Assembly (NCBI RefSeq): GCF_004363005.1 | Contig: NZ_SNYH01000005.1 | Location: 124,001-188,000, forward strand | Length of the DNA stretch: 64,000 nt | Direction: 5' to 3' | DNA from: Tenacibaculum caenipelagi | GTDB lineage: Bacteria > Bacteroidota > Bacteroidia > Flavobacteriales > Flavobacteriaceae | Shown: positions 13,094 to 37,107 of the stretch, piece by piece | How positions within the stretch are numbered: position 1 is the stretch's first letter | Layout of the letters: every line of letters starts with the position of its first letter | Position numbers and translations under genes: made by a program | The notes under the pieces: generated by a model | Told to the model about the DNA's origin: nothing | Database searches by the model: none | What the model saw: only the letters and a program-made list of their open reading frames with translations

Positions 13094-13127
13094 TAATACC
13101 TCTATTATGTATTCAATATGCTAACTA

Positions 13128-13232
13128 ACATTTTTCTACACAATACGATATGTAATCTTTTTATTGTTTGGTCTCACTCCCCTTAGGCTTCGTGTGTTGA
13201 CCCGATAAAAAAGTTACACTTTTTTATCTTAC
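13128..13232 (+). repeat. Copy 1 of an undescribed intergenic element (no gene in 13094-13437)
   Basis: This copy starts with ACATTTTTCTACA (13128-13140), the same 13 bases as at 16235, and ends with CCCGATAA followed by a hairpin: GATAAAAAAG (13204-13213) and CTTTTTTATC (13219-13228) around TTACA. The second copy ends with the same CCCGATAA and a TTACAC loop. The middle part holds one degenerate 23-bp unit (ACTCCCCTTAGG...GTGTTG) like those at 16275. The 3' hairpin with flanking T run could also end transcription of the reductase gene. The rest of the 344-base gap has only the short repeat at 13264 and no ORF I can support. Confidence 0.6.
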
Positions 13233-13263
13233 TTTTTTTATATTTGAGAGTGTTAATAAAATT

Positions 13264-13293
13264 GCTAAAAGTTCCACTTATACTATCGTAAAA
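13264..13293 (+). repeat. Dispersed motif M1, copy a
   Basis: This 30-base block around TTCCACTTA matches the block at 34014-34043 at 24 of 30 positions, with similar AT-rich bases after it, and both sit upstream of accessory genes (the PIN nuclease here, hamA there). Function unknown. Confidence 0.5.
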
Positions 13294-13437
13294 GGAATAT
13301 ATAAGTAATTTTATTGCGTATATAAACTAGTTACCTGTAATCCCTCTCATCAGTAATAATATTAATTCCTAAGCTAATGAATGGTGTATTGAAGTCTGTA
13401 AAAAATAGAATCAAACTTAGTCAATATTAGAAAAATT

Positions 13438-14391
13438 ATGATTTTAGAAAATAGCATTATCGTATTTGACACTAATTCATATAGGAATTTTGTAAAAGAT
13501 AAAACTACACAAGAGGTCATAGAATCCACATTAAAATTAAAAAAAATAGAAAAAGAACTAAACATTGAATCAAACGCTCCTATTATAGTAATTTTCGAAA
13601 TGTTAGCTAATTTAGATAACGAAACAACTAATGATAACTTTACAGAGTGTTTAAAAGGTCTTATTTCTGCATCTTATCATTGCTTTAATCGAAATAATTA
13701 TAGTGTAATTCCTTATTCTGTTCCATTGTTTTGTCATTTTTTACACCAAAAAGTACCTCAAAATATTGAAAACAATATACGAGGGATGTTAGGTGTTTTA
13801 GATTTCATAAAAAAAGACACTGAAAAAGCAATTGAAACACATAAAGAAGATTTCAAAAATTACAAGGAATATATATCTGAAATCGAAAGTAATTATTCAA
13901 AATTACTAAAATCATTCTTAGAACAAATTAATGATTATATAGAAAAGAAATTCCCTAAACTTCAAAATAAACAAAAACGAATTAAAAAATTAGAATATTT
14001 AGATAGTGAAATTTTTCAAAATGATTTTTCATATGGAGTTATAGAATTGATGAACTCTAAATTAGGGAAAACAGTTAAAAAAGAAGAATTAGACAGAATG
14101 GTTATTGAGTTTAATTTAACATTTCCTTTTTCAAATAAATTCTATAAGTATGTATTAAATGAATTAATAAGTAAGAACATTAACCTTGACTCGAAAACTT
14201 CACTGAAGAAAAGATTAAATTGGATATGGGATTACAACATTGGGATAGTTATAACTAATTCAACTATTAGAGATAAAAAGACCTTTGTGGTAACTCAAGA
14301 TAAAGACTTATCAGAGGTAATTAAAAATATAGAAGATTCAAGAGTTATGACTTTATACGAATATTACTCTACTATTGGATATAACGAATAA
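13438..14391 (+). CDS. PIN-like nuclease-domain protein
   Basis: A 317-residue protein with the acidic-residue layout of a large PIN-like ribonuclease. VFDTN gives Asp11, IFEMLAN gives Glu54, WDYNIGIVI gives Asp265, and TQDKDL gives Asp288 and Asp290. Between them is a long, lysine- and glutamate-rich helical insert (about residues 115-200) that standard VapC toxins lack. No antitoxin-like gene precedes it, so a simple VapBC pair is unlikely. It is very AT-rich and lies in the block bracketed by the two intergenic elements, which suggests acquired cargo. A defence or tRNA/mRNA-cutting role is inference. Confidence 0.7.
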   Translation: MILENSIIVFDTNSYRNFVKDKTTQEVIESTLKLKKIEKELNIESNAPIIVIFEMLANLDNETTNDNFTECLKGLISASYHCFNRNNYSVIPYSVPLFCHFLHQKVPQNIENNIRGMLGVLDFIKKDTEKAIETHKEDFKNYKEYISEIESNYSKLLKSFLEQINDYIEKKFPKLQNKQKRIKKLEYLDSEIFQNDFSYGVIELMNSKLGKTVKKEELDRMVIEFNLTFPFSNKFYKYVLNELISKNINLDSKTSLKKRLNWIWDYNIGIVITNSTIRDKKTFVVTQDKDLSEVIKNIEDSRVMTLYEYYSTIGYNE

Positions 14392-14432
14392 TCAAGCAAG
14401 TACTTAAATTTAAGTATAAAAACAACTACAGG

Positions 14433-14474
14433 TAACAATATATAATCGCAATTGCGACAGACTCAATCACGTCC
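14433..14474 (+). repeat. Dispersed motif M2, copy A
   Basis: TAACAATATATAA followed by ATTGCG, AGACTC and CACGTCC. The same order of blocks occurs at 38346, and the first part occurs at 37150. It lies 42 bases after the PIN-like gene. It includes the palindrome TCGCAATTGCGA. Confidence 0.5.
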
Positions 14475-14536
14475 AACTCCACTCAATCAACTCAATAAAA
14501 AGATATTAACTACATTACATTTATCAATCAAAACAA

Positions 14537-14947
14537 GTGAAAATAGACACCGATACACTACCTAAATGCTCATTAGAAGAGAAGAAATTTTCTTGGGGAG
14601 AGCCATATTTAGTTGTAACCCCAATATTTGACATGGTAATACCACAAGAATTTTCTGATATTGAATTTTCTGTTGAAATATTTATAAAAAATAACTTCAG
14701 GAATCAACTATTAGAATTTTACAATGTTTTGATTAATTATGAAGAAAACAATCGGATTGAAAATTTCGAAGACACCATACCAGAACAGCTTCGTAAAGAA
14801 GTGTTAGCAAAAATCAAAAGCTTTCTTGACTCAGAAAAGAAATTAACCCCTTGGGAGAAATACGATGAATATGGAAAAGAACTAGATTTTTTGTATAAGT
14901 TTGAAGAAGAGTTTAACCGAAAAATATTATTTATCAACCCGAAATAG
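14537..14947 (+). CDS. Hypothetical protein, GTG start
   Basis: A 136-residue acidic protein. The only reasonable start is GTG at 14537: no in-frame ATG lies upstream, and the next one is at about residue 34 (FDMVIPQ). The C-terminal two thirds are helical and charged (EEFNRKILFINPK at the end). I recognise no family. The length and acidity are like many immunity proteins or small antitoxins, but nothing in the sequence proves this. It lies 145 bases after the PIN-like gene, separated by motif M2, so it is probably transcribed separately. Confidence 0.5.
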   Translation: MKIDTDTLPKCSLEEKKFSWGEPYLVVTPIFDMVIPQEFSDIEFSVEIFIKNNFRNQLLEFYNVLINYEENNRIENFEDTIPEQLRKEVLAKIKSFLDSEKKLTPWEKYDEYGKELDFLYKFEEEFNRKILFINPK

Positions 14948-15045
14948 AGCCACTTACTGTAATTATTATAAGTAATTCACTAACTCTCGCCTACTTTTTA
15001 TCCTTTTGAACAATAATATACTATGCTAAAAAAACTCTTCTCTAA

Positions 15046-15597
15046 ATGGAAACACCTCAAATGACACAAGAACTATATCAAAAAGCAATAAAGTTTGCTG
15101 GAGAAAAACATAAAGATCAAAAAGTTCCTGGAACAAACTCTAACTATTTGCTACACATCTCTAACGTTGCTATGGAAATAATCATAGCATATAATGCAAA
15201 TAACAATTTCGATTTGAATTACGCTGTTCAATTAGCGCTACTCCACGATACATTAGAAGATACTGATACCGACTTTTCGGATTTATTGAACATGTTTGGT
15301 GAAAAAGTTGCTAATGGAGTTCAAGCATTAACTAAAAATAAAAACATAAGCTCTAAAAAAGAGAAAATGATAGACAGCTTGAACCGAATAAATAAACTTG
15401 AAAAAGAAGTTGGAATGGTAAAATTAGCAGATAGAATTACAAACCTTCAAGAACCACCAAAACATTGGAAAAAAGATAAAATTCAAAACTATTTATCTGA
15501 AGCTATCGTAATTAATCAAACACTAAATAACAAGAATGAATATTTAAATAAAAGGTTAGAAAATAAAATTGCTGAATACAAAAAGTATATTGAATAA
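15046..15597 (+). CDS. HD-domain hydrolase of the SpoT/MESH1-like type
   Basis: A 183-residue single HD domain. Metal ligands are seen as His37 (YLLHISNV), His67-Asp68 with Glu71-Asp72 (LLHDTLEDT), and Asp129 (VKLADRITNL), the pattern of Mn-dependent (p)ppGpp hydrolases such as MESH1 and the SpoT hydrolase half. There is no synthetase, TGS or ACT domain, so it would be a stand-alone alarmone or nucleotide phosphohydrolase. An ATG at 15061 is an alternative start. Within the accessory block it could work on a signal nucleotide, but no synthetase gene is nearby. Confidence 0.82.
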   Translation: METPQMTQELYQKAIKFAGEKHKDQKVPGTNSNYLLHISNVAMEIIIAYNANNNFDLNYAVQLALLHDTLEDTDTDFSDLLNMFGEKVANGVQALTKNKNISSKKEKMIDSLNRINKLEKEVGMVKLADRITNLQEPPKHWKKDKIQNYLSEAIVINQTLNNKNEYLNKRLENKIAEYKKYIE

Positions 15598-15683
15598 AAA
15601 CTGCTATAAGTACTTACTTGCTCTCACTACTTCTAAAAATTCTCATAATAAAATGATATAATAATCTGGCGCAACCATAACAA

Positions 15684-15691
15684 TACTTTTG
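15684..15691 (+). promoter_or_regulatory. -7 box before the lipoprotein gene
   Basis: TACTTTTG fits TAnnTTTG and lies 33 bases upstream of the ATG at 15725. No -33 TTTG is visible at the usual distance. Confidence 0.35.
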
Positions 15692-15724
15692 CATCTACAT
15701 AGTAAATCATTCAAATATTGAGCT

Positions 15725-16171
15725 ATGAAAATTAGAATATCAACTTTACTATTGCTTTTAAGCGCAACGCTTTTTATAAACTGTAATAGCGACAATGAAA
15801 TACCACAAGCTGAAACTATAAACGGAACTTGGAGCTTAAAAAATGTTAATGGAGGCTTTACTGGTGTTGATGTAACCTATGAAAATGAAACCGTTACTTG
15901 GCAGTTTAATGCCAAAACAGAAACCCTTACCGTTAAAAGCACACTAATAAATAACGGTCCGCAAAGCACCTACTTACCTTTACAAAGCGGAACCTACAAC
16001 TATTATCTTTCGGAAGCTAATGGAAACACTTTTGTTCATATTAAAGACTTTGGAATTCATACAAATGACGAGTACGGAAGCTATAGTATACAAGATGGAG
16101 TTTTAATTATTAACCAAGGTGAAAGCTATGAAGGCAGTGCCGTAGATACTTTTGTACTAACTTTTAATTAA
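15725..16171 (+). CDS. Small lipoprotein, lipocalin-like
   Basis: A 148-residue lipoprotein: a signal peptide ends in the lipobox LFINC with Cys20 as lipidation site. The mature part begins with a short acidic linker and then NGTWSLKNVNGGFTG, a start often seen in lipocalin-like Bacteroidota lipoproteins, followed by alternating beta strands up to VDTFVLTFN. A specific ligand or function cannot be given. It is the last gene of the accessory block, 64 bases before the second intergenic element. Confidence 0.65.
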   Translation: MKIRISTLLLLLSATLFINCNSDNEIPQAETINGTWSLKNVNGGFTGVDVTYENETVTWQFNAKTETLTVKSTLINNGPQSTYLPLQSGTYNYYLSEANGNTFVHIKDFGIHTNDEYGSYSIQDGVLIINQGESYEGSAVDTFVLTFN

Positions 16172-16234
16172 AAGCAGTAACCATATTTTAAAAACCATTA
16201 AAACAAGCTCTTTAAAAACTACAACACTTCACAA

Positions 16235-16421
16235 ACATTTTTCTACAGGGTAGCCCCATTCCCCTATAAAAACAGCTCCCATTACTGTGGGAGAGTCATT
16301 CCCCTTAGACAGGGAGTCTCGCTCCCATTATTATGGGAGTGTCGCTCTCCTTATGCAAAGAGTATCATTTTCCTTACCGCTGAGGTGTCGTCCCGATAAT
16401 AATTACACATTATTTTTTTAC
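16235..16421 (+). repeat. Copy 2 of the intergenic element, expanded (no gene in 16172-16578)
   Basis: The left end ACATTTTTCTACA (16235-16247) and the right end CCCGATAA plus a TTACAC-loop hairpin and T run (16392-16421) match copy 1 at 13128-13232 in the same orientation. Between them lies a tandem array (16275-16389). Together the two copies bracket exactly the genes from the PIN nuclease to the lipoprotein. An ORF across the array (16287-16469) has no protein-like composition. The rest of this 407-base gap up to the permease shows nothing I can name. Confidence 0.6.
16275..16389 (+). repeat. Five tandem 23-bp hairpin units
   Basis: Units begin at 16275, 16298, 16321, 16344 and 16367, each exactly 23 bases and ending in GTC or a near match (AGTC, TCTC, TGTC, TATC, TGTC). 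Each unit carries a short inverted repeat: CTCCC/GGGAG, TCCC/GGGA, CTCCC/GGGAG, CTCT/AGAG and CCT/AGG. The arms change together between units, so pairing appears to be kept while sequence drifts. A half unit may precede the first. There are no unique spacers, so this is not CRISPR. Confidence 0.75.
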
Positions 16422-16578: not shown

Positions 16579-18711
16579 ATGAGGAACAAACTAAAAAAAG
16601 ACTTAGGATTATTTGATGTTTTTGCCATAAGTACTGGAGCTATGTTTAGTTCTGGTTTCTTTTTATTACCAGGAATCGCCTCACATTACACAGGTCCGTC
16701 TGTGTTTTTAGCGTATTTACTTGCAGGTGTATTAATACTACCCACCATGTTTAGCATTGCTGAAATATCAACAGCCCTACCGCGATCAGGAGGTGCCTAC
16801 TTTTTTTTAGATAGAAGCCTAGGTCCACTCATGGGAACCATTGGCGGACTAGGTACTTACTTCGCTTTAATGCTAAAAACGGCCTTTGCTATTATTGGTA
16901 TTGGTGCTTATGCCGCTATATTTTGGGAAGTTCCTACCAAGATAGTTGCTATCGTAGCCACTCTTTTTTTTATGGCGTTAAACTTAGTAGGTGCTAAAAA
17001 AACCTCCGCCTTTCAAAAGGTGTTTGTCATATTTCTATTAGTCATTTTAGTTGGTTTTATTGCGGACGGTCTTTTTTCCATATTCACCTCAGATACTATA
17101 ACTAACGAATCTATTAACAAACAGTTTACTCCTTTCTTTTCAAATGGATTTGGAGGGATGTTTACAACCATAGGTTTTGTTTTTGTTTCGTATTTAGGGC
17201 TTACCCAAATAGTAAGTGTTGCAGAAGAAATTAAAAAACCCGAAAGAAATATTCCTTTAGGAATGATACTCTCATTAGTCGTTACTGGATTAATTTATGG
17301 TTTAGGTGTTTTTATTATGGTAACTCTTATTGAGCCTACTGCCTTTGCTAACGAATTGGCACCAGCTGCTACAGCCGCAGAACAACTTTTTAAATGGTTA
17401 CCCGATAATGTAGGGGTACTATTAATGTCGGTAGCAGCACTTGCCGCTTTTGCTTCTACAGGGAATGCAGGACTATTATCTGCATCACGATACCCTTTTG
17501 CCATGGGACGCGATAAACTATTTCCTGCTATTCTAGCTAGAATTGGTAAAAAAGGAAGTCCTGTAGTGGCTATATTTTTAACCACAGCACTAATTATTGT
17601 ATTCATTCTAGTACTATCAGAAGAAGGTATTGTAAAGCTTGCGAGTACCTTCCAGTTATTAATTTTTATCTTTATTAACTTCTCTGTTATTGTTTTTAGA
17701 AAAAGTAAAATAGAATCATACGACCCAGGGTATTTATCTCCACTATATCCGTTTATGCAAGTTATCGGAATTACTATTTCCTTCATTCTTATTATTTATT
17801 TAGGATGGATGCCAATACTTTTTACCTCTGGTATTATTGTTATTGGTTTACTTTGGTATCATTTTTATTCCAAAGGAAAAGTAAAACGAGAAGGAGCAAT
17901 TTTTCATTGGTTTGCGCTTTTAGGGAGACATCAATACGATGAATTGGAAAATGAATTAATGACCATTTTAAAAGAAAAAGGACTTCGTGAAGGTGACCCT
18001 TTTGATGAAACCGTTATTAAATCGAAAATAAAAATAATAAAGGATACTACTAACTTTGATGAAATATTAAATAAGGTATCTGATTACTTTTGCAAAGAGT
18101 TAGACCTTAACAAAGAAGGAATACTACACAAATTTTTCCAGTCTATACCTGATGAGTCAGTCATAGCTTTACCTGGTATTTTAGTTTTTCATGCTAAGTT
18201 CAAGAATCTTTTGCATCCTTCCATGAAAATTGTTATTTCTAAAACCCCTATTAACGGAACACTTCCGTATGATGATTATGAATTTAAAAAACCAATTCAA
18301 ATCTGTGCTTTTCTTATCAATTCTGATGAAAACCCCAAGCAACAACTACGTATGTTATCAAGGCTTCTTGATATTTTAGAAAGAGAGCAAATTGTAAAAA
18401 CGTTGCTTAAAATGAATAGCCACAGAGAAATTAAAGAGTTTTTACTACAAAACGAGCGATTTGTAAGCATCAAATTACTAGAAGGAACCCCGCAAGACAT
18501 CATGATTGGGCAGCAGTTAAAAGATATTCAATTGCCAAAAGATGTTTTAGTAGCCTTGATTGAAAGAAATGATAAAACTTTTACCCCCAACGGTTCAACA
18601 GTTTTATTAACGGATGATGTACTCACCATACTTGGAGAAACTAAATCTATAGCAAAATTATACAAGGAATATATGAGTTATGAAATTGAAAAATTAGATA
18701 CTAAAACATAA
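16579..18711 (+). CDS. APC-family amino acid permease with EIIA-like and RCK_C-like cytoplasmic tail
   Basis: A 710-residue fusion. Residues 1-430 form a 12-span APC-superfamily transporter (FAISTGAMFSSGFFLLPG and SGGAYFFLDRSLG are TM1 and TM3 signatures). The cytoplasmic tail resembles a PTS EIIA type-2 fold (about 460-620, VIALPGILVFHAKFKN, CAFLINSDENPKQQLRMLSRLLDIL) and then a TrkA-C/RCK_C-like fold (about 630-705, DVLVALIERNDKTFTPNGS, LLTDDVLTILGE). Such tails are thought to gate transport by ligand or phosphorylation state. The EIIA active His is not clearly in the usual place, so this half may only sense. Substrate unknown. Confidence 0.83.
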   Translation: MRNKLKKDLGLFDVFAISTGAMFSSGFFLLPGIASHYTGPSVFLAYLLAGVLILPTMFSIAEISTALPRSGGAYFFLDRSLGPLMGTIGGLGTYFALMLKTAFAIIGIGAYAAIFWEVPTKIVAIVATLFFMALNLVGAKKTSAFQKVFVIFLLVILVGFIADGLFSIFTSDTITNESINKQFTPFFSNGFGGMFTTIGFVFVSYLGLTQIVSVAEEIKKPERNIPLGMILSLVVTGLIYGLGVFIMVTLIEPTAFANELAPAATAAEQLFKWLPDNVGVLLMSVAALAAFASTGNAGLLSASRYPFAMGRDKLFPAILARIGKKGSPVVAIFLTTALIIVFILVLSEEGIVKLASTFQLLIFIFINFSVIVFRKSKIESYDPGYLSPLYPFMQVIGITISFILIIYLGWMPILFTSGIIVIGLLWYHFYSKGKVKREGAIFHWFALLGRHQYDELENELMTILKEKGLREGDPFDETVIKSKIKIIKDTTNFDEILNKVSDYFCKELDLNKEGILHKFFQSIPDESVIALPGILVFHAKFKNLLHPSMKIVISKTPINGTLPYDDYEFKKPIQICAFLINSDENPKQQLRMLSRLLDILEREQIVKTLLKMNSHREIKEFLLQNERFVSIKLLEGTPQDIMIGQQLKDIQLPKDVLVALIERNDKTFTPNGSTVLLTDDVLTILGETKSIAKLYKEYMSYEIEKLDTKT

Positions 18712-18823: not shown

Positions 18824-18964
18824 ATGGATAAATGTATTTTTTGCGACATCATAAACAACGAATCATCGAACCACAAAATATGGAAAAATAAAGAGCAGGT
18901 GGCATTTTCATCAATATTCCCAAATACAGAAGAATCTACTGTTCTCAACAACAACTATAAGTAG
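18824..18964 (+). pseudogene. Truncated HIT-family hydrolase remnant
   Basis: A 46-codon frame reads MDKCIFCDIINNE, then HKIWKN, VAFSSIFPNTEESTV and stops. This is the N-terminal zinc-site and first strands of a HIT (histidine triad) protein, in which CxFCxIIN and IFPNTxGHTLVIPKxHY are conserved. The frame ends in an asparagine run and a stop just where the VIPK-HY segment should follow, and the catalytic HxHxHxx triad is absent both here and downstream, where an AraC gene begins. So the 3' two thirds are lost. It may still be translated as a short peptide. Confidence 0.7.
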
Positions 18965-18997
18965 TTGCATATTCTCACCTATTCTGAAAAAGAAAAC

Positions 18998-33843: not shown

Positions 33844-34013
33844 GATATAAAAATGTTTGTTAACACCGTATTTATTATAAACTTAACCAAAAGTCATTTC
33901 AGTTTTGTTACGCTTAATTATTCTACGGAACTCTCTAACAAACGAAACTATAAACCAGCACCTTAGGAATTTTTACTATATTTAATTCGCAAAAATGAAA
34001 AAAGAATATAATT

Positions 34014-34043
34014 GCTATAACTTCCACTTAGTCTACTGTAAAA
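34014..34043 (+). repeat. Dispersed motif M1, copy b
   Basis: A 30-base block around CTTCCACTTA, matching 13264-13293 at 24 of 30 positions, 83 bases upstream of hamA. A promoter-like TATATTTAATTCGC (33978-33991) precedes it and resembles TATCTTTAATCCGC at 38441. Confidence 0.5.
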
Positions 34044-34126
34044 AAAGTAATAGTAAGTTTATTCTGCATATAAAAAATTAAGAATATTTGATAGATTCCT
34101 TGATTTAAAATTAAAAACTAAACTAA

Positions 34127-34807
34127 ATGAATGGATATGATATAATATATAATAATAAAATTGATGACCATATTACATTTATTCGAATCAACCCTACTGA
34201 TATAAAAGTAACATTAAGGGAAATTTTTAATTCAATTTCTAATATTGCTTGGATAAGTTCTTTCGATGAAGATTATATTAAGGATGGTTTTAAAGTTAGA
34301 GCAGAAGCAACTATTGACTATATATCCAAAAATATAATAAGATCAAATGAAGATGAAGTGACTAAGAATTCTGGAGAATGCCTTGTTTCTGAATTAGCAA
34401 GAAAGACGGTTGTTAGTGAAATGAAATATTTAGATATCCCTTTGGGTGAATTAATAAAAGAGAAAGATTTTGGTAATCATGGTTTTGATTTTTTTTCAAA
34501 AAACAATGATAACATTTTACTCTTTGGAGAAGCTAAATATGTGGCTGCTCAGAATGCTTATGGTAAAGCTTTGAAGCAAATTGTAAAGTTTATTGGTAAA
34601 AAAGATAAATCGGATGTAATAGCTATAGATAAATTTTGTTGTGAAGACTCAAAGCGAAATTTTGCTTCAGGAAATAAAGGATTTATGGCTGCTTTTGCAG
34701 CTAAATCTACATCTACAAAAAAAATTATAAAAGGCATTCAAGAAAATACTGATTTTCAGGAGTTAATCAAGTATAATGAGTTAATTTGTATTGCTGTTAA
34801 TATATGA
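34127..34807 (+). CDS. hamA: HamA (DUF1837) nuclease-type effector of a Hachiman defence system
   Basis: A 226-residue protein with a PD-(D/E)xK-type core: Glu84 in SGECLVSELARK, Asp121 in NHGFDFFSK, then Glu135-x-Lys137 in LFGEAKYVAAQNAYGKAL. This matches the DUF1837 HamA arrangement, in which HamA cuts DNA once released by HamB on sensing damaged or phage DNA. It overlaps hamB by 4 bases (ATGA), the usual coupling. The call rests on the catalytic layout plus the neighbouring helicase; sequence similarity to named HamA proteins was not measured. Confidence 0.78.
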   Translation: MNGYDIIYNNKIDDHITFIRINPTDIKVTLREIFNSISNIAWISSFDEDYIKDGFKVRAEATIDYISKNIIRSNEDEVTKNSGECLVSELARKTVVSEMKYLDIPLGELIKEKDFGNHGFDFFSKNNDNILLFGEAKYVAAQNAYGKALKQIVKFIGKKDKSDVIAIDKFCCEDSKRNFASGNKGFMAAFAAKSTSTKKIIKGIQENTDFQELIKYNELICIAVNI

Positions 34808-37107
34808 AGGATATAATAAAGAAAATATTAACAGACAAAGATATTGAAGCTATTTTTGAGTATGTTATAGACCGCCTCTATAAAAATGGACCTGTATCCG
34901 TTTGTGATATGGAGATTCTATCTCTTTTGAAACTGTATCACAATGATGTTTTTAAAGAATTTAAAAACTCAATTTTGAACTACATGGCTCTTTTTTATAA
35001 GGATATTAAAAGTAACACCTTAAAAGAGGTTGTATTTGGTCAGTACAAAAAGTATTTAGAAGCTAAATATTCAAAGCATTACACGCCTGTACAAGCAAAT
35101 ATTGTAAAAGGTATAGAAAATAATAATTGTTTTAGTTTTTCAGCTCCAACAAGTACAGGAAAATCATTCGTATTTATGAATAAGATTCAAGAAACAAAAA
35201 ATGATGTAGTTGTAGTTGTTCCATCTCGTGCATTAATTAATGAATACTATTTAAAATTAAACGACAGCATTAAAGACAAGTCTGTCAATGTCTTAACCTT
35301 CATAGATAAGATAAACACACGATTTGCCAAGAGAAATGTTTTTATTGTCACTCCAGAAAGGTGCCGTGAACTATTTAAGTTAAAGAATGATTTTAATGTT
35401 GACTTATTTCTTTTTGATGAAGCTCAACTTAGTGATGAAAACTCGAAGAGAGGGCTTTATTTTGATAGTATAGTACGTAGATGTTATAAAGCTTTTCCCC
35501 AATCAAAATTTGTGTTTGCTCACCCATTCGTCAAAAACCCTGAATCTCAAATTGAAAAAAATCATTTTAAATCGGATAACCTGCATGCAGTTCAGTTTAA
35601 CCAAAAAAGTGTAGGACAACTGTTTTTATGTACTGATGATTTATGGAATTATTATCATTTTGGGATTGACAAAACAATTATGGGAAAGCAAAAACATCCT
35701 TGTCCGTTTGACCCAATTGAACAAACAATCAAAAATAAAGGTTCTGTTTTGTTTTATGTTTCAAAAGCAAAAATCTACAATAAAAAATTTATTAATAGGT
35801 TTAGTAAATACATTAATTTGTGTGAAGACATTAAAGACCCTAAAGCAGATTACTATATAGAACAAATTAAAGAATACACTGGCGGTGATACAAACTCCTT
35901 AAGAAGCCATTATTCACAGTTAATTTCATTCTTAAAAAAGGGAATTGTTATACATCATGGTTCCTTGCCTCTTCAAATCAGATTACTAATTGAACAATTT
36001 ACAAAAGATGGTTTATGTCGATTATGCTTTGCTACTTCTACATTAGAGCAAGGAATTAATATGCCTTTTGATGTTGTATTTCTAGATAGGTTAGATGGAA
36101 GTAAGCCTTTAGCCGTTAAAAATCTTATTGGACGTGCAGGTCGTTCATCTCTTGATAAAGAGTTTGATTTTGGTTATGTTATTGTAAGTTCTCCAGGTAG
36201 AATGTCGAAATTTAGAGAAATAATACAATCAGATGAGATATTAGATAATGTATCCTTATTAGAAAAAGAAGAAACGCAAGATGATGATTACAATGATTTC
36301 AAAGAGGCTATTATTAACGATACATATTCTGATGAGTATAACCTTACTGAAAAAGATCTACAAAAGTTAAGTAATAATGCTGTAGATCCTGTTATTAAAG
36401 ATATCCTTAATTCTGTATTTCACAATGATACTCTAATTCCATTAAAAATTTTAACAAGTACTTCTCAAAATCGTTTGGAATTATATGCCCATTTTCAGAA
36501 GTTATATAGCATTTATCTTGGTAGAAATCTTGAACGAGGTGAGCAGAATGTATTTAATACAGCAATTAAAATAATTCTATGGCAAGTACATGGAAAAACA
36601 TTCAAAAACATATGTTGGTATCGATATGCATATGCAAGTAAATCACATGAGAGAGATATTCAAAAGAAGTTGGGGCAAAACACCGACCGATTAGAAGCTG
36701 CATTCTTTACTGAATACAAAGATTTACCTGACAAAAGGATTAATGTATATAATAAACTTGATGGTGTTAAAGCTAAAAATGTAGACTATGATTTAATTAT
36801 GTTTGATACTTATGATTATATAGATAAATTAATTGGTTTTAAACTGAGTGATATTTTATATGCTACTTTCTATAAATATTATGAACGTAAAACTGATTCA
36901 AGAGCATTAAAATTAGCTAAATTTATTAAATACGGAACAGATAATGAAAAGCATATCTGGATGTTGAGATATGGAATGTCCTTTGAAGATATTGAACTTT
37001 TAGAAAAATATATTGACGATATTAATTCAACACAGATTGTTTTTAAAAATTCTATTTATACTATACCTGATGAAGATAAGAAATCGATTTTGAGATTCCT
37101 AAACTAA
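34804..37107 (+). CDS. hamB: HamB superfamily 2 helicase of a Hachiman defence system
   Basis: A 767-residue Ski2-like SF2 helicase. Motif I is APTSTGKS (114-121), Ia VVVPSRALINEY, motif II DEAQ (205-208, instead of DEAH), motif V ATSTLEQGINMPF (409-421) and motif VI GRAGRSS (443-449). The C-terminal 300 residues are helical and have no recognised motif. In Hachiman, HamB scans DNA and controls HamA. Together with the overlapping hamA gene this forms a complete two-gene system. A different two-gene defence system with the same architecture cannot be fully excluded. Confidence 0.8.
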   Translation: MKDIIKKILTDKDIEAIFEYVIDRLYKNGPVSVCDMEILSLLKLYHNDVFKEFKNSILNYMALFYKDIKSNTLKEVVFGQYKKYLEAKYSKHYTPVQANIVKGIENNNCFSFSAPTSTGKSFVFMNKIQETKNDVVVVVPSRALINEYYLKLNDSIKDKSVNVLTFIDKINTRFAKRNVFIVTPERCRELFKLKNDFNVDLFLFDEAQLSDENSKRGLYFDSIVRRCYKAFPQSKFVFAHPFVKNPESQIEKNHFKSDNLHAVQFNQKSVGQLFLCTDDLWNYYHFGIDKTIMGKQKHPCPFDPIEQTIKNKGSVLFYVSKAKIYNKKFINRFSKYINLCEDIKDPKADYYIEQIKEYTGGDTNSLRSHYSQLISFLKKGIVIHHGSLPLQIRLLIEQFTKDGLCRLCFATSTLEQGINMPFDVVFLDRLDGSKPLAVKNLIGRAGRSSLDKEFDFGYVIVSSPGRMSKFREIIQSDEILDNVSLLEKEETQDDDYNDFKEAIINDTYSDEYNLTEKDLQKLSNNAVDPVIKDILNSVFHNDTLIPLKILTSTSQNRLELYAHFQKLYSIYLGRNLERGEQNVFNTAIKIILWQVHGKTFKNICWYRYAYASKSHERDIQKKLGQNTDRLEAAFFTEYKDLPDKRINVYNKLDGVKAKNVDYDLIMFDTYDYIDKLIGFKLSDILYATFYKYYERKTDSRALKLAKFIKYGTDNEKHIWMLRYGMSFEDIELLEKYIDDINSTQIVFKNSIYTIPDEDKKSILRFLN

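Follow-up and report, generated by a model that had tools for sequence, protein, structure and literature searches.

Integrons and clusters of attC sites lacking integron-integrases (CALINs) are the described systems that most resemble the locus analysed here. CALINs are attC clusters without integron-integrases (PMC9024848), one genome survey chose integrases by their additional domain or patch (PMC2426708), a transition from Xer to IntI enzymes is discussed as a proposal (PMC4792948) and Tenacibaculum larymnensis is reported as integron-free by IntegronFinder 2.0 (PMC10013915). We analysed a stretch of 64,000 nucleotides (nt) from Tenacibaculum caenipelagi (contig NZ_SNYH01000005.1, positions 124,001 to 188,000; hereafter the window), in which two direct copies, A and B, of an intergenic hairpin array bracket a block of accessory genes. 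The arrays are probably hairpin minisatellites residing at fixed loci, and the accessory block an orphan platform, one of many dispersed in the genome, that receives cassettes of the integron type. In the integron literature on Bacteroidota, Flavobacteriia and Tenacibaculum, covered mostly outside subscription journals, we found no description of such a system, and a search for literature on such hairpin arrays returned nothing relevant.

We class the block as integron-type, distinguished by a putatively patch-less integrase in relatives and by dispersed orphan sites. As in integrons, unrelated cassettes join at a site ending in GTT, the presumed crossover point given the position of the junctions, and they share one orientation and carry accessory and defence-like cargo. 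At some loci, both of relatives and of T. caenipelagi, the R'' end of attC is complementary to the cassette start, and relatives present the order integrase, attI, array; the window cassette has an inverted end, but a degenerate attC. Unlike in integrons, the integrase-like protein is devoid of most of the presumed IntI-specific additional domain, the integrase, attI and cassettes are codirectional in the loci read, and T. caenipelagi lacks such an integrase yet harbours many scattered attI-like sites. The occurrence of attC-bearing cassettes without an integrase recalls CALINs. However, each locus is headed here by an attI-like site and a promoter-like box, the loci are dispersed and the attC of the window is degenerate.

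The comparison covered 166 genomes of the genus (designated G, and their loci L), including the 3.27-Mb genome of T. caenipelagi (G000). The leader of the arrays is found in T. gallaicum (G027), T. discolor (G022), T. larymnensis (G080) and T. sp. 1_MG-2023 (G150), and the six orthologous loci compared were those of G000, G022, G027, G080, G101 and G150. The platform comprises the following features in the window, where R1 is the model of the site presented below and ORF stands for open reading frame.

13239..13246, + strand: TATATTTG box, upstream of the attI-like site
13249..13332, + strand: attI-like cassette site of 84 bp (R1 E 9e-24, the site being among the R1 training sequences)
13330..14436, + strand: first cassette, with its start GTTACCTGTAA at 13330 and its end CTACAGGTAAC at 14426, inverted at 10/11 positions
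13438..14391, + strand: cassette gene of 317 amino acids (aa), without a PADLOC hit or a passing Pfam family
14426..14475, + strand: cassette end (inverted start) and putative degenerate attC-like left half
14537..14947, + strand: GTG-start ORF of 136 aa, function unassigned, in 3/6 orthologous loci
15046..15597, + strand: HD_4 hydrolase (Pfam 7e-10), in 6/6 orthologous loci
15603..15644, + strand: attC left-half remnant, with 83.7% identity across 43 nt to an attC from an integrase-bearing array
15725..16171, + strand: lipocalin-like lipoprotein gene, in 3/6 orthologous loci

The 84-bp sequence ending with GTT at 13332 resembles the attI found behind an integron-integrase-like gene of other Tenacibaculum. 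What it has in common with other loci stops with GTT 13330-13332, roughly 100 bp beyond copy A. The same A-side junction occurs in T. caenipelagi, T. discolor, T. larymnensis, G101 and two places of T. sp. 1_MG-2023, similarity ending after TATATAAACTAGTT or a close variant; in T. gallaicum, the A array, a long part of which has a 21-nt period, runs into a 21-nt minisatellite and then the site variant TATATAACGAGTT. Behind this site the start of the first cassette differs in each of the six genomes and the flanking genes are the same, the first genes encoding for instance an ApeA-type HEPN protein (G101) or a caspase-like protein (T. larymnensis). A search with copy A, where the best four candidates per genome were scored, gave matches in 30 of the 166 genomes. 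Those covering the tail mostly end at query positions 208-212, the GTT lying at 207-209, and several others are short A+T-rich pieces.

From 38 fetched stretches and the six loci, 34 site sequences were aligned, leaving out the near-duplicate L161, and all end in GTT except that of L176, which has GTA. A consensus fold was considered for the site and dropped: RNAalifold predicted no base pair on this alignment, and R1 is therefore a sequence-only model. With at most the 25 best candidates per genome scored, R1 has matches at E<=0.01 in 86 of the 166 genomes, in many cases a single, weak one. At this threshold it locates at least 18 places in T. caenipelagi, with different genes behind, and T. 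larymnensis has at least 14 matches. Many attI-like sites are preceded, as judged by eye, by a box akin to TATATTTG, whose copy at 13239..13246 resembles what we take to be the Bacteroidota -7 promoter box (TAnnTTTG).

An integron-type cassette would repeat its first bases inverted at its end, and 11 positions were scored for this property. Ten of 31 sites reach 10/11 and 13 more reach 9/11, against 30 (3.2%) of 924 mismatched pairs at 10 or better and 36% at 9 or better; the binomial P of 3e-8 for the ten sites at 10/11 treats as independent sites that are not fully so. One of the ten best (L178) is without the cassette-end AAC and probably arose by chance. In T. caenipelagi, 8 of the 13 sites examined (16 were listed) show at least 9/11 no more than 18 nt from where the longest nearby ORF stops. 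Matching ends were also obtained for 21 of the 30 candidate starts in four integrase-bearing arrays chosen by their R1 match.

Full attC can be read in these four arrays, many of them measuring about 120-130 nt. The dispersed attC of T. caenipelagi (C3:58k) and of G088 find their best array matches at 91% over about 155 nt, other matches ranging from 80 to 90%, and the C3:58k locus comprises one full attC and, some 1.25 kb past the site, another BLAST match. In the window block, one attC half is recognised by BLAST and another is a tentative assignment. The bottom strands of two attC fold strongly (z -4.0 and -5.0). Additionally, T. gallaicum and T. sp. 1_MG-2023 share a cassette (82.5% over 2080 bp), which lies behind the integrase-like gene in the former and at a dispersed site in the latter, the homology beginning at the site with no similarity upstream.

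Several R1 matches in other Tenacibaculum lie directly behind genes matching TIGR02249 in two pieces, with positions 180-239 or thereabouts skipped. An attI-like pattern is present within 240 nt past the stop at 10 of the 12 top TIGR02249 loci, one of which (the L193 place) is probably spurious, compared with zero among 11 Xer-like loci and one among 53 window ORFs; the pattern was written after viewing such loci and misses L186, L192, L281 and L282. The GTT site is visible by eye in L186, L192 and L193, while R1 detects the post-integrase site of L225-L229 and L282 and, weakly, that of L279 and L189. In T. larymnensis too, despite the integron-free result of IntegronFinder 2.0, an integrase-like gene has an attI-like site behind it, and G028 retains broken integrase pieces.

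The integrase-like protein of L227 (387 aa) combines Phage_integrase and Phage_int_SAM_4 domains. Like Xer enzymes, it scores best against an XerA-type model (NF040815, 215.5 bits for a cut-off of 220), although it reaches neither this cut-off nor that of the integron models. Aligned with IntI4 (2a3v), it matches in two pieces, with some 18 residues opposite about 61 in IntI4. The spacing between the R and H residues is short, as in Xer: 88-89 aa in the 17 integrase-like proteins measurable by pattern and 96 in XerD of T. caenipelagi, versus 132 in 2a3v as counted from the L227-IntI4 alignment. In contrast with Xer enzymes, whose 11 loci tested have no attI-like site behind, the L227 protein heads a cassette array equipped with such a site, and about 90 aa precede its first recognised domain. 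We read the stretch skipped in the alignments as the IntI-specific additional domain, or patch, which would be mostly absent from these proteins. This domain is reportedly needed for activity.

The shared site, the precise A-side junction, the inverted ends at part of the loci, the integrase-attI-attC arrays and the shared cassette can all be read in the sequences themselves. Circular cassettes would enter at the GTT through an integrase-like recombinase and come under the control of the upstream promoter-like box. The first cassettes would later be lost or replaced, and the older ones behind them, with the GTG-start ORF and the HD gene, would retain only a degenerate attC. Tenacibaculum would then possess an integron lineage whose integrase, lacking the IntI-specific domain, stands near the proposed Xer-like ancestor, and whose orphan attI sites are dispersed, filled in trans by accessory and defence genes and missed by standard finders; for this wider proposal we see the chances as evenly balanced. 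Such a gene-capture system has apparently been overlooked by standard integron searches. If true, the existence of a patch-less integrase together with its attI and attC would open the proposed Xer-to-IntI transition to testing, and the picture of one platform per integron would change in view of orphan attI sites dispersed in the genome. Because several cassettes match defence models, these sites may also be a source of defence-gene turnover.

Several observations weigh against an integron-type platform. On the side of the enzyme, none of the 166 genomes reaches the TIGR02249 cut-off, T. caenipelagi displays only Xer-like and weaker tyrosine-recombinase matches instead of an integrase of this kind, R1 fails at most of the L183-L194 integrase loci, and no attI-like sequence follows the integrase-like gene of L281. 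On the side of the cassettes, 21 of the 31 sites fall short of 10/11, including the first cassettes of T. discolor, T. larymnensis and G101 and the second platform of T. sp. 1_MG-2023. The attC right halves are absent between the window cassettes, and the predicted bottom-strand structures of attC leave the R and L boxes partly unpaired. No empty site was found, no systematic search having been made, and the swaps at orthologous loci could also result from homologous recombination between conserved flanks. For a possible insulating role of the arrays, addressed below, the terminator scan called nothing in copy A.

The two arrays have a common architecture: a leader, 23-nt hairpin units and a terminal CCCGATAA hairpin. 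Their features are as follows.

13124..13176, + strand: copy A leader, beginning with CTAACATTTTTCTACACAATA
13177..13199, + strand: single 23-nt hairpin unit of copy A
13204..13228, + strand: terminal hairpin of copy A, GATAAAAAAG-TTACA-CTTTTTTATC, then a T-rich tract, terminator-like by eye
16231..16275, + strand: copy B leader
16276..16390, + strand: five 23-nt hairpin units of copy B, with loops TTACTG, TTAGAC, TTATTA, TTATGC and TTACCG
16391..16421, + strand: end of copy B, TCCCGATAA and the terminal hairpin AATAAT-TACAC-ATTATT

The preliminary description had recognised two direct copies of one element, and this was borne out: the leader 13-mer ACATTTTTCTACA occurs exactly at 13128 and 16235 and, genome-wide, twice forward and never in reverse (none for a reversed-pattern control), and the tail CCCGATAA with its hairpin lies at 13201-13228 and 16392-16414 in the same orientation. 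The element is not spread all over the genome. No third full copy appeared with the copy B query in T. caenipelagi (25 of 25 candidates scored, the next best at E 0.31) or with the copy A query among the best 4 of 87 candidates, where the other three matches cover the tail only. The tail pattern CCCGATAAN{2,10}TTACA matches two further places (control, one), both without 23-nt units.

Folding is better than that of dinucleotide shuffles on the + strand for copies A (z -2.6) and B (z -2.4), as well as on the - strand for copy B (z -2.25). Among 150 units parsed in T. caenipelagi and its relatives, 68 are distinct, and pairing of positions 1-6 with 13-18 occurs in 68% of their cells, compared with a mean of 60.5% after shuffling the 3' halves (0 of 2000 shuffles reach 68%) and with 41-58% after sliding; it is weak for the two inner pairs (0.56 and 0.40). 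A known RNA family was sought and discarded, the window giving only two transfer RNAs at gathering scores. At the A locus, where T. caenipelagi has one unit, relatives have at least two, with a contig break within the array in T. discolor. Longer arrays carry identical units at their downstream end, which we read, along with the T. discolor contigs terminating within an array, as a sign of recent expansion. Growth of the arrays, whose 23-nt units stand behind a conserved leader, is most likely due to slippage.

The order of gene, hairpin array, terminal hairpin with T-tract, promoter-like box, docking site and cassette suggests, as a tentative idea, that the arrays might act as transcriptional insulators separating the preceding gene from the next promoter. 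A terminator scan of the region found four terminators for 1.1 expected, two of them in copy B. Other minisatellites are present upstream of attI-like sites, with periods of 21 and 42 nt and up to about 24 copies (L146, L147, L148, L160 and also L290) or of 41 nt (L157).

The preliminary description had proposed that the block is exchanged by recombination of the two copies with each other or with homologues. Orientation and leader are indeed common to both, the genes between them are accessory, and gene content varies by species. We give this exchange hardly any credence, since the A and B leaders are locus-bound and no hybrid was seen in the six genomes. The B-type motif GGTAG marks the B locus in 6/6 and is absent from every A locus, both copies are present in all six, and no single-copy locus was seen. 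Moreover, the HD gene is present in all six, the A-side junction falls outside the element, and T. discolor and T. gallaicum carry an additional ORF, serine-hydrolase-like by eye, ahead of copy A and beyond the bracketed interval. Over 52 nt, ungapped leader identity is at least 0.90 between A copies of five genomes (0.60-0.63 to T. sp. 1_MG-2023), 0.62-1.0 between B copies and 0.38-0.56 between A and B, the labels being set by GGTAG and agreeing with the loci. In favour of contact between copies, the A leader of T. sp. 1_MG-2023, compared with gaps over 60 nt, resembles the leaders at a third array locus (0.88-0.93) more than it does other A leaders (0.81-0.85); array copies may convert one another, this leader having perhaps been converted by the third array. 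What stands of the original proposal is the involvement of a recombination-type site, which adjoins copy A instead of being the copies themselves. A rather unlikely origin of the swaps at dispersed sites is ordinary homologous recombination, in which the conserved 5' sites and the attC remnants would serve as substrates without a site-specific recombinase. It would suit the conserved flanks and the finding that G000, G022, G088, G101, G150 and G142 have no match beyond Xer level. However, it would not create complementary cassette starts and ends where these are present, and it fits poorly with the same cassette at two places with unrelated upstream DNA.

Two further explanations concern the arrays. 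As short palindromic intergenic units of alternating types, they recall repetitive extragenic palindromic (REP) sequences and bacterial interspersed mosaic elements (BIMEs), which could be moved by a REP-associated tyrosine transposase (RAYT, Y1), and Y1_Tnp matches exist in T. caenipelagi and in 10 of 16 genomes tested. This candidate was set aside as very improbable: the array-bearing T. discolor, T. larymnensis and G088 have no Y1_Tnp match, the units are in tandem at few fixed loci, and no GTAG/CGTC end tag was noticed by eye. Improbable too is that the arrays belong to the capture platform itself, for example by helping the attI-like site to open or fold. In its favour, minisatellites of three unrelated types (23, 21/42 and 41 nt) are found upstream of such sites in the clade, but the association is biased because array loci were partly picked with an array-containing query. 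Among the 15 T. caenipelagi sites examined, only A has a unit, a single one, and the others have none within 1.5 kb upstream; furthermore, no site lies behind copy B. Our preferred interpretation is that of fixed minisatellites next to an integron-type platform.

With one mismatch allowed, the B-type leader pattern matches 10 of the 166 genomes and corresponds to true elements in the six compared here, the remaining places looking coding by eye. Among the best four candidates per genome, the copy A query also gives leader-and-unit matches in G088 and G028 and unit-and-tail matches in G142. In all six genomes a flavodoxin-like gene precedes copy A and a permease gene follows copy B, copies A and B being on different contigs in T. 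gallaicum and T. discolor. The A-locus array of T. sp. 1_MG-2023 is L154 (C23:106.9k). In G028, the array loci L162 and L163 (C1:507.5-512.5k and 944.5-949.5k) share about 1 kb including flanks at 93-96% identity, a duplicated unit.

Between the copies, the genes are accessory-looking, as first described, and gene content differs between species. Rather than four genes conserved in order, the HD gene is in six of six loci, the GTG-start ORF and the lipoprotein in three each and the supposed PIN-like gene in one, counts to be read for T. gallaicum with its region lying on two contigs. The assignment of the HD hydrolase was confirmed by the HD_4 family, that of the lipoprotein is partly upheld by a lipocalin-like match just below the cut-off, and no Pfam family passes for the GTG-start ORF or for the 317-aa protein called a PIN-like nuclease. 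A structure model of the latter, obtained without alignment, was discarded for its predicted local distance difference test score of 37.5, which leaves the PIN label unproven. This protein has a 25% identical relative in T. sp. 1_MG-2023, likewise in a cassette, preceded by an attI-like site and followed by an attC and the start of the next cassette.

Other sites of T. caenipelagi display varied cargo. At 34001-34082 of the window, a second attI-like site (R1 E 1.8e-13) has lost its GTT and is directly followed, at 34127-37107, by a 226-aa ORF with no PADLOC hit and a 767-aa helicase matching Hachiman HamB models. Elsewhere in the genome, the first ORF behind the site matches a UG17 reverse transcriptase (C6:15.3k, L238; E 7e-130), a metallo-beta-lactamase of the RTasMBL/LmuA type (C4:429k, L239) or a GmrSD/Schlafen protein (C4:47k, L171). 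Also in the window, 43261-43335 matches an attC right half with the cassette start GTTACCAAACATTAAAAACC, directly behind which there is no + strand ORF of at least 90 aa. An attC left-half match (82.6% over 46 nt) lies at 18946-18990, downstream of the permease gene. Finally, elsewhere in the genome, a stretch at G000:C3:433032-433199, within an open frame of 62 aa, is 84% identical to residues 654-709 of the permease encoded at 16579-18711.

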